A stretch of 36,708 nucleotides of DNA from a virus, in the IMG/VR virus record IMGVR_UViG_3300018083_000074, positions 1 through 36,708 of that record. One strand, 5' to 3'. Positions 5,835 through 29,351 of the stretch are shown here, piece after piece; position 1 is the stretch's first letter, and every line of letters begins with the position of its first letter. The notes beneath the pieces are model-generated. The model was given only the letters and a program-made list of their open reading frames with translations, was not told the origin of the DNA and did no database searches. Made by a program: the position numbers and the translations under genes.

Positions 5835-5864
5835 TTGACGGTCTAGCAACATCGTTGTTACGTT
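5835..5864 (+). promoter_or_regulatory. Strong promoter with embedded operator, no ORF of normal size
   Basis: TTGACG (5835-5840), an 18-nt spacer and TACGTT (5859-5864). The spacer holds an exact operator palindrome CAACATCGTTG (5847-5857). Only a 25-codon GTG frame follows; a hairpin terminator begins 17 nt later. Confidence 0.65.
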
Positions 5865-5871
5865 CCCGGTG

Positions 5872-5921
5872 GGGGAAGCACAGAAGCCCCCTGCTCCTCC
5901 CGCCGGGAGTAGGGGGCTTCT
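5872..5921 (+). ncRNA. Candidate short terminated RNA
   Basis: A transcript starting about 7 nt after the -10 at 5859-5864 would run straight into the hairpin at 5882-5921, giving an RNA of about 50 nt. This is inferred from promoter and terminator placement only. Confidence 0.4.
5882..5921. terminator. Bidirectional hairpin terminator
   Basis: AGAAGCCCCC pairs perfectly with GGGGGCTTCT, with a further CTCC/GGAG inner stem. There is no long T run on either side. It separates the plus genes ending at 5833 from the minus genes ending at 5976. Confidence 0.6.
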
Positions 5922-5975
5922 GCGTTGGTCACCGCCCCGCCGTTGACGGTGACCTCGGCGCCGACGAACTGAACG

Positions 5976-6116
5976 TCAGCGGCGATCTTTGGGGGGCCGC
6001 TCGTGCATGCGCACGATCTCGATGACCACGTCGGCCACCAGCAGTGCGGCCAGCACGAGGACCGCTATCACGAGCATCCCGATGGTGTTGTCGTCAGCGC
6101 TCGCTGCGGACCACAT
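5976..6116 (-). CDS. Tiny single-span membrane protein
   Basis: 46 aa. ATG 6116 has GGAGG 6 nt upstream, inside the end of the 43-aa gene. One clear membrane segment, MLVIAVLVLAALLVADVVI, is followed by a basic tail, suggesting a cytoplasmic C terminus. Function unknown. Confidence 0.65.
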   Translation of the reverse strand: MWSAASADDNTIGMLVIAVLVLAALLVADVVIEIVRMHERPPKDRR

Positions 6117-6225
6117 CGTCATCCTCCGGGTACTGATCGGTGATCGTGGTGATGACCTCGGTGACCGTGACCTCGGCGATCTCAGGGTGGCGCTCCAGCC
6201 AGTCGGCCAGGGAGTCAAGATCCAT
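6094..6225 (-). CDS. Small acidic protein
   Basis: 43 aa starting MDLDSLADWLERHPEIAEVTV, rich in Asp/Glu. ATG 6225 is 6 nt after TAAGGT, on the leaderless pattern. Its 3' end overlaps the following membrane-protein gene by 23 nt, suggesting coupling. Confidence 0.6.
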   Translation of the reverse strand: MDLDSLADWLERHPEIAEVTVTEVITTITDQYPEDDDVVRSER

Positions 6226-6261
6226 CGTTGAACCTTACACATCGTTGTGGGACGCTTGTCC

Positions 6262-6281
6262 AATTCGGAGATCTCCGAGTT
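6262..6281. promoter_or_regulatory. 20-bp near-perfect palindrome
   Basis: AATTCGGAGATCTCCGAGTT is a palindrome with a single mismatched pair. It sits in the 96-nt gap between the 39-aa membrane gene (stop 6322) and the start of the 43-aa gene (6225). A likely protein-binding site, different from the CAAC-N3-GTTG family. Confidence 0.5.
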
Positions 6282-6321
6282 AGGACCGCCCTGTGAGGAA
6301 TGTGGATATCGCTGTGGACGG

Positions 6322-6441
6322 TCATCGGGAGGCCAGCGAGAGGAGTACGAGCGTCCCCACGATCGTGATGAAGGCGATCTCCAGGTACGCCTTCCAATCA
6401 AGCCTCGTGCGGCGGGTGCCCCGGCGGTAGGGACCGGCCAT
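6322..6441 (-). CDS. Tiny membrane protein
   Basis: 39 aa: a basic N terminus (MAGPYRRGTRRTRLDW), then one hydrophobic span (IAFITIVGTLVLLSLA). TGATG overlap with the stop of the upstream exported protein gene. Function unknown; topology suggests an N-in single span. Confidence 0.65.
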   Translation of the reverse strand: MAGPYRRGTRRTRLDWKAYLEIAFITIVGTLVLLSLASR

Positions 6442-27424: not shown

Positions 27425-27642
27425 GCCGTCACCTGATCGGCGATCTCGATCATGCGGACGTGCCAGGCGAACAGCACCGGCTTGGCCTCTTCGTAGCTCG
27501 GGTACATGTCGCCGCTGCCCTGGTTGGGGTCGTCCTCGGCCCGCTCGACCTGATTGGTCAGCTCGGTCCAGAACTCGTTGAGGTTGTCGTAGCCGTGGGC
27601 CAGCACGAGGTTGGCGAGGTTGCGCTTCTGGTTGCGGGTCAT
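27421..27642 (-). CDS. Small hypothetical protein, leaderless start
   Basis: 73 aa starting MTRNQKRNLANLVLAHGYD. ATG is 7 nt after TACCAT; a longer frame reads through the promoter and is rejected. Helical, acidic centre. Function unknown. Confidence 0.72.
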   Translation of the reverse strand: MTRNQKRNLANLVLAHGYDNLNEFWTELTNQVERAEDDPNQGSGDMYPSYEEAKPVLFAWHVRMIEIADQVTA

Positions 27643-27649
27643 GGGAGTG

Positions 27650-27680
27650 ATGGTAGCAGGTCGTTCAACGATGTACAACG
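27650..27680 (-). promoter_or_regulatory. Promoter with direct-repeat operator (gene 27642)
   Basis: TTGTAC (27678-27673), 17 nt, TACCAT (27655-27650), 7 nt to ATG. CAACG at 27666 and 27676. Confidence 0.75.
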
Positions 27681-27681
27681 T

Positions 27682-28194
27682 CTACAGTGCGATTGCTCCA
27701 CGAGGCGCCTCGGGGCGCTGAGCGATCAGCGGGCCACCGACCTGAGCGTCGAACAGCTCGGGCGGCAGCAGCGGCGTGGTGCGTGCGAGCGGCAGCACCT
27801 CGACGGCGAGCTTGCTGCTGGCGAACCCGGCGAGCAGTGCCTCGGCGTACTCGTTGCCGTACATCAGGCGCACGAGCCACACGTAGCGGGCCCGCCACTG
27901 CGGGCCGTGGCGGTCGTCGGTGATGATGTGGGCCAGCTCGTGCGGCACTGCGAACCGCCACGATCCGAGCACCTTGTAGGCGATGATGCTGGCGCCCCGT
28001 GCGTAGTCGCACGAGCCCTTGGTGGCGATCAGGTTGAGCGGCTTGGTGCCGTACACGGCCTGCCACTCGGGCGTGGCCTCGACCTCCCTCGTGGTGCTCA
28101 CGAGGGAGGCGAAGTCCTGCGTCTCGCCGAGCAGCGTGTGCGTGAACGCATGCTGCTCGGCGCCGTAGCTGACGCTCTTGGCGATGTCTCTCAT
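27682..28194 (-). CDS. HExxH zinc metalloprotease-like protein (TIGR04338-like)
   Basis: 170 aa. PHELAHIITDDRHGPQW places His85, Glu86 and His89 as the zinc/catalytic motif, with His96 in HGPQW a likely third ligand. The surroundings (MRDIAKSVSYGAEQ at the start, YVWLVRLMYG after the motif) fit the actinobacterial/phage metallohydrolase family TIGR04338 as I remember it. Substrate unknown. ATGA overlap with the DUF2786 gene suggests co-expression. Confidence 0.78.
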   Translation of the reverse strand: MRDIAKSVSYGAEQHAFTHTLLGETQDFASLVSTTREVEATPEWQAVYGTKPLNLIATKGSCDYARGASIIAYKVLGSWRFAVPHELAHIITDDRHGPQWRARYVWLVRLMYGNEYAEALLAGFASSKLAVEVLPLARTTPLLPPELFDAQVGGPLIAQRPEAPRGAIAL

Positions 28195-28961
28195 CGCCCG
28201 AGCGCCTTGGTGCCGCCGCCGACTCGGTTGCGGCCACCGCTGAGGTCAGCGTTGCGTGCGGCGATGGCGCCGTTGCTGCGACCGTTGGAGCTGCGGCCCG
28301 TGCTGTGTCCGACCGTGCGCAGGCGCTTGGTCTTCATGAAGTCGGCGACGGCCTTCTTGCGCTCCACGAGCACCAGCTCGGCGCCCACGACCCGCTCTTC
28401 GGCGGCCTCGACGGTGCTGCCGTTGTCGGCGGCGTGCGCCACGGCGGCGGCCCGAGCGAACGTCACGCTCTCCCGCAGGCGGCGGCCGATCTCCTGTGTG
28501 TACCCGGCGACGAACGAGCGCCGGTAGTCCTTGGTCACGGCGATCGACCGGGACTTGAACTCGCACGACTGCGCCACGGCGTCGGTGAGGAGGAAGTTGG
28601 CCAGGCGGCGCACACGCTCGAAGTCCGAGCGGAACCCGCTGATGCGCACGTTGTACGTCATCCCGCTGGAGCGCCACCACACACGGCAGTCGTACGCCGT
28701 GGCGACCTCGTTGATCAGGCTGGCGTGGAGGAGCCCGTAGGCGCCCTTCAACACGCCGTACTCGTGGTCAGCCAGCTCGTCGGCCTGCTCGATGTTGAGC
28801 ATCGCCATCTCGATGCGGTGCTGCGCCATCAGCGACAGCGCCTTGGCCTCGGCGACGGCCTTCTCGGCGGGCGGCGTGTTCGGGTGGTTGGCCCGGCGCC
28901 ACATCTTCTCGACCTTGGCGAGCAGGATGTCCAGCTCGAAGTTGGTTGCGGTGTCAGTCAT
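28191..28961 (-). CDS. DUF2786 domain protein
   Basis: 256 aa. Residues about 8-50 (ILLAKVEKMWRRANHPNTPPAEKAVAEAKALSLMAQHRIE, split here only by residue limits) show the DUF2786 helix pattern. A middle region with conserved-looking FLLTDAVAQ and YRRSFVAGYTQEI follows, then a basic Gly/Arg-rich C terminus. DUF2786 proteins are common in actinophages; role unknown. Co-transcribed with the metalloprotease. Confidence 0.82.
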   Translation of the reverse strand: MTDTATNFELDILLAKVEKMWRRANHPNTPPAEKAVAEAKALSLMAQHRIEMAMLNIEQADELADHEYGVLKGAYGLLHASLINEVATAYDCRVWWRSSGMTYNVRISGFRSDFERVRRLANFLLTDAVAQSCEFKSRSIAVTKDYRRSFVAGYTQEIGRRLRESVTFARAAAVAHAADNGSTVEAAEERVVGAELVLVERKKAVADFMKTKRLRTVGHSTGRSSNGRSNGAIAARNADLSGGRNRVGGGTKALGR

Positions 28962-28999
28962 GGTGGTGGTTCCTTGGTGGTGGTGGTGGTGGTTGGTCA
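28962..28999 (-). repeat. CCACC-rich intercistronic cassette (copy 3)
   Basis: Stop TGA of the 29308 gene, CCAACC, CCACCA units, AAGGA, ACCACCACC, ATG 28961. Nearly identical to the copies at 22732 and 30385. Confidence 0.78.
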
Positions 29000-29308
29000 G
29001 CGGACAGGGACGATGCGGCCACCGAGGCGGAGCGCCCGGAGCTGCGTGCGCTCGGTGATGGCGGCGGCGTAGCCGACGATGCGACCGTGGGCCACGATGG
29101 CGAACGGCTGCGTCGTGCGGGTCGGGATGCCGAGCGTCTTGCACGTCTCGACGGCGGGCCCGATGGCCGGGCCGACAGCGACGTCGAACCGGTGCGCCTC
29201 GCACTCGGCGAAGACCTCGCCCGTGCGGCTGGAGGTGAAGCTCGTGACGGCGGGCTCGCCGCAGCGGGCGCCGTCGCCCCGTACAACGACTGTGCAGGTG
29301 GTGGTCAT
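28997..29308 (-). CDS. Hypothetical protein, 103 aa, leaderless start
   Basis: Starts MTTTCTVVVRGDGARCGEPA. Four Cys and one His (TCT, RCGE, AECEAH, ETCK) suggest a small metal site of the C...CG..A...C..H type. ATG is 7 nt after TACACT. Confidence 0.72.
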   Translation of the reverse strand: MTTTCTVVVRGDGARCGEPAVTSFTSSRTGEVFAECEAHRFDVAVGPAIGPAVETCKTLGIPTRTTQPFAIVAHGRIVGYAAAITERTQLRALRLGGRIVPVR

Positions 29309-29315
29309 ACCAGTG

Positions 29316-29351
29316 AGTGTAGCAGAGGCACGTCGTTGCACAACCTCGTTG
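29316..29351 (-). promoter_or_regulatory. Promoter with palindromic operator (gene 29308)
   Basis: TTGTGC (29343-29338), 16 nt, TACACT (29321-29316), 7 nt to ATG. The operator CAACCTCGTTG (29341-29351) overlaps the -35, with another CGTTG in the spacer. Confidence 0.7.

Follow-up and report, generated by a model that had tools for sequence, protein, structure and literature searches.

CvkR (Alr3614), a dimeric MerR-type repressor of type V-K CRISPR-associated transposon (CAST) systems with a leaderless mRNA, binds AnnACATnATGTnnT (ACAT-N-ATGT), a site in which the spacer length matters, and shows 33% identity with McdR of mycobacteria (PMC9938897). McdR (Rv1830) is a MerR-type repressor that regulates cell division and DNA repair and binds AATnACAnnnnTGTnATT near the transcription start site (PMC9040748). 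Both proteins bear on a set of palindromes, CAAC-N3-GTTG (CAACNNNGTTG), scattered over 36,708 nt of viral DNA (IMG/VR record IMGVR_UViG_3300018083_000074, referred to below as the window), which an initial annotation had put forward as a possible phage-wide operator set resembling the stoperators of cluster A mycobacteriophages. The window also encodes a MerR-family protein, the candidate binder of these palindromes.

Among solved structures, CvkR is the closest to the phage MerR protein by sequence and by full-length fold. The two systems share a short, odd-centred palindrome whose centre is a single base, a site overlapping the promoter and a leaderless gene, whereas the palindromes themselves differ (ACATnATGT against AACGnCGTT), and CvkR has few target promoters and no reported direct-repeat geometry. 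Moreover, CvkR regulates a CRISPR-transposon, whereas the phage operators would form a phage-wide set. McdR resembles the phage protein as an actinobacterial MerR-type regulator, and the nearest cellular relatives found are actinobacterial MerR genes of 37-48% identity, which we take to be McdR orthologues; its different site and its role in cell division and DNA repair set it apart. The FtsR/Rv1828 motif was considered as a match to the phage palindrome and rejected, as it is different.

In cluster A mycobacteriophages, many copies of a single repressor word are spread genome-wide as operators and stoperators, much like the phage set, but the site is an asymmetric, orientation-dependent 13-mer, the repressor is a monomeric two-domain protein and the phages are temperate (PMC9283540). 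As repressors of early promoters, Apl of phage 186 and other recombination directionality factors (RDFs) recognise direct repeats spaced by one helical turn, which recalls the phage sites; unlike these, they form low-specificity cooperative arrays without an odd-centred palindrome (PMC7498355). BldC is a MerR-like winged helix-turn-helix (wHTH) protein acting on direct repeats, as proposed for the phage MerR, but it has 68 residues, no dimerisation domain, AT-rich repeats and head-to-tail oligomers (PMC5859096).

Palindromes and half-sites at early promoters

The window contains 12 exact palindromes, against a mean of 0.30 and a maximum of 2 in 100 dinucleotide shuffles, and the second-order Markov expectation (1.16) is about tenfold lower than observed. 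Sites with one mismatch, several of which had been claimed, number 45 against 10.5 in shuffles (maximum 19). Eight palindromes lie in the 4.0 kb of non-coding DNA (0.05 in shuffles) and four in called coding sequences (0.41 after codon shuffling), two of the latter (21435 and 22996) being promoters within the 3' end of the upstream gene. Chance or composition as the origin of the palindromes is ruled out by these dinucleotide, Markov, non-coding and codon-shuffle controls. The ten coordinates of the initial annotation are all exact matches, and the comparison with shuffled sequence that it proposed places the motif far above expectation; two additional copies, at 10023 and 12326, are both intragenic. 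Symmetrised over 24 sites in promoters or non-coding DNA of the window and two relatives, the sequence logo reads R-CAACG-W-CGTTG-Y. The sequence TGTCACACC, which adjoins site 15762, shows no overall enrichment.

One relative, referred to as G2 (IMGVR_UViG_3300043499_000238, 111,140 bases), is collinear with the window at about 82% identity over the aligned parts. Promoter and non-coding palindromes that can be aligned keep their core while the flanks drift: sites 15312, 15762 and 23641 are identical to G2 at 8/8 core positions with flanks 74-78% identical, and 15762 is also kept 8/8 in a further relative, G019 (flanks 76-78%). Conservation extends to the non-coding cluster at 15.3-16.1 kb. 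Intragenic sites are mostly lost (7/8, 6/8, 6/8, 5/8 and 4/8 core positions in five comparisons), except for 12326, kept 8/8 within a 91% identical stretch. The late-region genes of G2 hold six palindromes against 0.42 by codon shuffle, and other palindromes likewise exceed codon shuffles inside genes. Because of this general excess, and because coding sites are mostly unconserved, no claim is built here on coding palindromes.

As the functional unit, the half-site (A)CGTTG(AA) occurs in two geometries. In the first, inverted half-sites lie one base apart (CAACG-W-CGTTG), the inverted arm preceding at 22996, 23641 and 29341. In the second, which marks the remaining early promoters, another half-site follows as a direct repeat 10 bp downstream or, in G2, may also sit 10 bp upstream. 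In the promoter and non-coding zones of three related genomes, CAACG-N-CGTTG occurs 13 times against 1.2 expected and CGTTG-N5-CGTTG 10 times against 0.4, and no third geometry stands out.

The promoters concerned emerged from a list of genes whose start codon is preceded at 6-8 nt by a −10 hexamer. They form a uniform minus-strand class with (A)CGTTG at −35, a spacer of 16-18 bp, an extended −10 TGCTAYMAT and exactly 7 nt to the start codon. Because of this last distance, the early transcripts would be leaderless and begin at the start codons themselves. GTTG stands upstream in 34/35 such promoters from six related contigs. At called genes of three gene-called genomes, a half-site lies within 40 bp in 25/25 extended −10 leaderless promoters, against 52/259 other genes (20%; p 2e-16) and 2/10 leaderless genes of the G2 late region (p 2e-6). 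Within IMG/VR, combinations of box, TGCTA, 7 nt and start codon come almost exclusively from this phage group. At the orthologous promoter of the SNF2-like helicase, the direct-repeat spacing is constant at 10 bp, whereas the −35/−10 spacer measures 16 in the window, 17 in G2 and 19 in another relative, G3; this suggests that a protein reads the pair and not the −35 alone. A different promoter, TACGCTGGG..ATG, likewise leaderless but with a gap of 6 nt and lacking the box, serves the late genes of G2 (loci L025-L030), in the late region at 57-111 kb and at some genes at 14-18 kb.

The claim that most palindromes overlap a promoter holds for 21435, 22996, 23641 and 29341 and is plausible for 5847; 15312 adjoins a −10-like hexamer and the others are non-coding. 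Sites in non-coding DNA without a promoter had also been reported: 15762, 15893 and 16076 lie in a hairpin-rich region and 14986, which may be a chance match, between two genes. A dispersed operator set linked to promoters is well supported, and the term early-promoter regulon fits the pattern better than the stoperator analogy does.

The MerR protein as candidate binder and competing readings

On the sequence evidence, the chances that the palindromes serve as operators through which the phage's own MerR represses a regulon of early genes appear to be about even. In the proposed mechanism, half-sites are placed at the −35 or spacer of leaderless sigma-A-type promoters, in some directly beside the −10. 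A MerR dimer would bind the half-site pair and block RNA polymerase at the early promoters, that of its own gene included, so that its accumulation would lower early expression jointly in a shared, self-limiting shut-off.

Repression as the sign of regulation is moderately likely. Their extended −10, together with a normally spaced −35 TTG, should let these promoters fire unaided. Sites overlap the −35, the spacer or the −10 at varying distances, and the extended −10 promoters of the window have spacers of 16-18 bp (19 only at a few G3 promoters) instead of the 19-20 bp of classical MerR activation. Such spacers need no untwisting by MerR and site centres vary relative to the promoter, so that occlusion is the most likely mode and repression is favoured over activation.

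Several features point to the MerR protein as the regulator. Its G2 orthologue is the sole one of 92 early or accessory G2 proteins to reach a Pfam transcription-factor family, and the CGTTGAA box in the promoter of its gene has the same arrangement in the window, G2 and G3. The AlphaFold2 monomer model (predicted local distance difference test score, pLDDT, 84) matches CvkR over its full length in Foldseek (E 3e-7, template modelling score 0.72) and in the VIA alignment (Z 14.9, 133 residues, root-mean-square deviation 3.1). The next VIA match (Z 10.4) extends over just 73 residues, all in the wHTH; the VIA rows for other MerR proteins cover only this domain, and families absent from the list may match as well. 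Like CvkR, the modelled monomer combines a wHTH with a C-terminal dimerisation module. As far as the fold tells, the operator system would work as a phage repressor regulon with a CvkR/McdR-type protein. The chance that this protein binds the palindromes and half-sites is put at about even.

Weighing against this assignment, the MerR gene's own promoter has one half-site and no palindrome. It is unusual for one regulon to combine two half-site geometries, and equally so for a single MerR dimer. McdR's own site AATnACAnnnnTGTnATT differs and is longer (PMC9040748). The pairing of MerR genes with palindromes in distant phages, described below, is suggestive only. Two other possible DNA-binding proteins must also be reckoned with: relatives encode a second MerR-like wHTH, and the window encodes the wHTH protein at 2482-2925. 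The second MerR-like protein lies outside the window (G2 6363-6833; L177 4546-5007) and reaches Pfam MerR_1 only in G021, where the Pfam profile found it and a single-sequence search did not.

A dedicated regulator would be needless if early promoters merely favoured the box as their version of the host sigma-A −35 region (CGTTGNAC). Most box promoters use the half-site's TTG as their −35, at 16-19 bp spacing, and with an extended −10 these promoters look self-sufficient. This explanation is nevertheless unlikely: polymerase needs no second half-site, yet pair spacing is kept while −35/−10 spacing drifts. Moreover, palindromes also adjoin a −10 without being a −35 (21435) and are conserved in non-coding DNA, and late promoters are mostly without the box.

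The binder could instead be one of the two other proteins, either the Xis/AlpA-like wHTH with a basic tail (2482-2925), acting on direct repeats as Apl does, or the second MerR-like wHTH, which is present in G2 and G021. The former has weak PHROG matches to DNA-binding and excisionase profiles, and direct repeats about one helical turn apart are indeed found (CGTTG-N5-CGTTG). However, RDF sites are arrays, so that the odd-centred palindromes are left unexplained by that family, the promoter region of 2482-2925 carries no box and the predicted structure of its product is too poor to judge (pLDDT 52). A binder of either kind is given a low probability.

T4 MotA activates extended −10 promoters of the middle-gene class, and the boxes might likewise be activator sites through which a phage factor turns such a class on. 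The extended −10 TGCTAYMAT is nearly universal, with the box near −25 to −35, and the second half of the −35 hexamer is poorly conserved. Activators usually have a fixed geometry, whereas here the box lies at varying distances from the −10 and may adjoin it or sit upstream of the −35, whose TTG is intact at standard spacing. Activation is accordingly regarded as rather improbable.

The likeness to stoperators, by which the sites would belong to an immunity-repressor system of a temperate phage, does not hold up and this origin is very improbable. Sites are dispersed, some are intergenic without a clear promoter, and the six copies in G2 late genes exceed the codon shuffle. They are, however, symmetric palindromes or 10-bp direct repeats instead of asymmetric oriented 13-mers, and the coding copies are mostly unconserved in relatives. 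Searches of the related contigs, whose records are incomplete or of unestimated completeness, brought up neither a tyrosine or serine integrase (Phage_integrase, Recombinase) nor an HTH_3 (CI-type) repressor scoring above cut-off, which makes a lysogeny switch less likely within that limit. Equally remote is a replication or partition function in which the 15.3-16.1 kb palindromes would be origin iterons and the rest secondary, since, although the cluster sits between strong hairpins in conserved non-coding DNA at the minimum of the cumulative GC skew, most half-sites are at promoters and the skew turns where the gene direction switches.

Genomic setting and neighbouring features

The window, a virus record without a completeness estimate, represents part of an actinobacterial phage genome of about 110 kb. 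The proteins encoded by G2 include DNA polymerase A, DnaB helicase, primase, RecA and a terminase, and tail-sheath and baseplate proteins are apparent by inspection. By terminase, the nearest isolates are Streptomyces phages BRock, LuckySocke and others (112-116 kb, 48% identity); in BRock, CAAC-N3-GTTG occurs 6 times against 2.1 expected and is no outlier. The nearest cellular relatives of the phage MerR come from Acidimicrobiia (48% and 41%), a weak hint at the host. Sites and the candidate regulator gene are listed in Table 1.

Table 1. Operator-like sites and the MerR gene of the window, in order of position
Feature	Position	Strand	Context
Exact palindrome CAACATCGTTG	5847..5857		Overlaps plus-strand promoter-like TTGACG-N18-TACGTT; unaligned with G2
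CGTTG and CAACG half-sites	6764..6781	minus	Upstream of −10 TAGACT (6751-6756), gene 6441-6743
Exact match CAACACTGTTG	14986..14996		Between two genes; atypical centre; unaligned with G2
Exact palindrome CAACGTCGTTG	15312..15322		Adjoins −10-like TAGTGT (minus strand)
Exact palindrome	15762..15772		Non-coding hairpin region
Exact palindrome CAACATCGTTG	15893..15903		Between hairpins; G2 palindrome at matching place (39428)
Exact palindrome CAACGACGTTG	16076..16086		Non-coding region; G2 counterpart at corresponding cluster end (39249)
Exact palindrome	21435..21445		Directly adjoins −10 TAGGAT (21429-21434), gene 21104-21421 (minus strand)
Exact palindrome CAACGTCGTTG	22996..23006		Minus-strand arm is −35 TTG of leaderless promoter, gene 22780-22962; −10 TACCAT 22970-22975, spacer 17
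Exact palindrome CAACGTCGTTG	23641..23651		At −35 of leaderless promoter, gene 23350-23607; −10 TACCAT 23615-23620
Direct-repeat operator	24598..24614	minus	Promoter of gene 24273-24575; −10 TATCAT 24583-24588, spacer 18
MerR-family regulator, 140 aa	24599..25021	minus	Pfam MerR_1; CvkR/McdR-like fold; proposed binder
Single half-site CGTTGAA	25045..25051	minus	Promoter of MerR gene itself; −10 TACGGT 25029-25034
Degenerate direct-repeat operator GTTGAAC..CGCTGAA	26575..26591	minus	Promoter of gene 26127-26555; −10 TACCAT 26563-26568; intact as CGTTG-N5-CGTTGAA in G2
Direct-repeat operator	27664..27680	minus	Promoter of gene 27421-27642; −10 TACCAT 27650-27655, spacer 17
Exact palindrome CAACCTCGTTG	29341..29351		Leaderless promoter of gene 28997-29308; −10 TACACT 29316-29321
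Further CAACG boxes	29334-29338, 29360-29364		Beside palindrome 29341
Direct-repeat operator	31150..31166	minus	Promoter of gene 30429-31127; −10 TACAGT 31135-31140, spacer 18
Direct-repeat operator GTTGAAC..CGTTGAA	32797..32812	minus	SNF2-like helicase gene promoter; −10 TATCAT 32784-32789, spacer 16
Direct-repeat operator CGTTG-N5-CGTTG(AA)	33655..33671	minus	Promoter of gene 32814-33632; −10 TACAGT 33640-33645, spacer 18

A hairpin-rich conserved non-coding region with three palindromes spans 15541-16155 in the window, 39200-39850 in G2 and about 2200-2750 in G019; the region may be an origin, an RNA or a regulatory array, and within it the strand 15773-15892 has a folding z of −7.3. A structured 116-nt non-coding stretch (15188-15303, minus strand, z −4.7) lies between convergent genes, downstream of palindrome 15312 and its TAGTGT; it is 82% conserved in G2 with two compensatory pairs and is possibly a bidirectional terminator or a small RNA. 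At 5835-5924, the plus-strand promoter-like sequence over palindrome 5847 is directly followed by a GC-rich hairpin, a possible RNA of about 60 nt. No tRNA or Rfam RNA was detected.

At places without a promoter box, minus-strand genes are separated by a repeated linker, CCAACCACCACC..AAGGAACCACC..ATG (22732-22779, 27186-27217, 28962-28996 and 30385-30428), consisting of a Shine-Dalgarno AAGGA within ACC repeats. Large plus-strand genes (3376-5391, 6982-8016, 8183-10156 and 10171-10827) encode threonine-rich or Asn/Gly/Ser repeat proteins with signal-peptide-like starts and sit among early-type genes.

Similar MerR proteins in other phages

In phages with MerR matches of 25-53% similarity, CAACN3GTTG is not enriched (6 against 9.4 expected in 702 kb), nor is it near cellular McdR-like genes (1 against 3.2 expected in 296 kb). 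Other dispersed palindromes recur in three of these lineages. The form CTACCNNGGTAG accounts for 10/11 CTACN4GTAG sites of a 56-kb contig (L211), with none in the control, and these sites overlap −10 hexamers. Four copies of CTACANNTGTAG occur in an 85-kb contig (L011), one of them 75 bp upstream of its MerR gene, and five copies of CTAACNNNNGTTAG in 20 kb (L239/L240/L241), one 150 bp upstream of its MerR gene. A rare recurrent palindrome is found in 3/39 regions upstream of MerR genes against 1% of random regions, one of the three being composition-like. The palindrome level of MerR-coding phages is above that of controls, but this is partly driven by GC-rich gap-0 words. The palindromes of these lineages support autoregulated MerR-operator pairs without proving them. 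More broadly, McdR/CvkR-like MerR proteins acquired from actinobacterial hosts may be recurring phage master regulators that coordinate early genes through lineage-specific dispersed promoter palindromes (CAACGWCGTTG; CTACCNNGGTAG, CTACANNTGTAG, CTAACNNNNGTTAG), a tentative generalisation whose chances fall somewhat short of even.

Gene timing in large lytic actinobacterial phages is poorly known. Here, sequence alone defines a regulon and its two-geometry operator, separates a leaderless early promoter from a late class that lacks the box, and points to a single candidate regulator. If the MerR protein is the binder, a family that acts in cell division (McdR) and in CRISPR transposons (CvkR) would here operate across a whole phage genome, and parallel cases in unrelated phages would allow operator specificity to be read against protein sequence.

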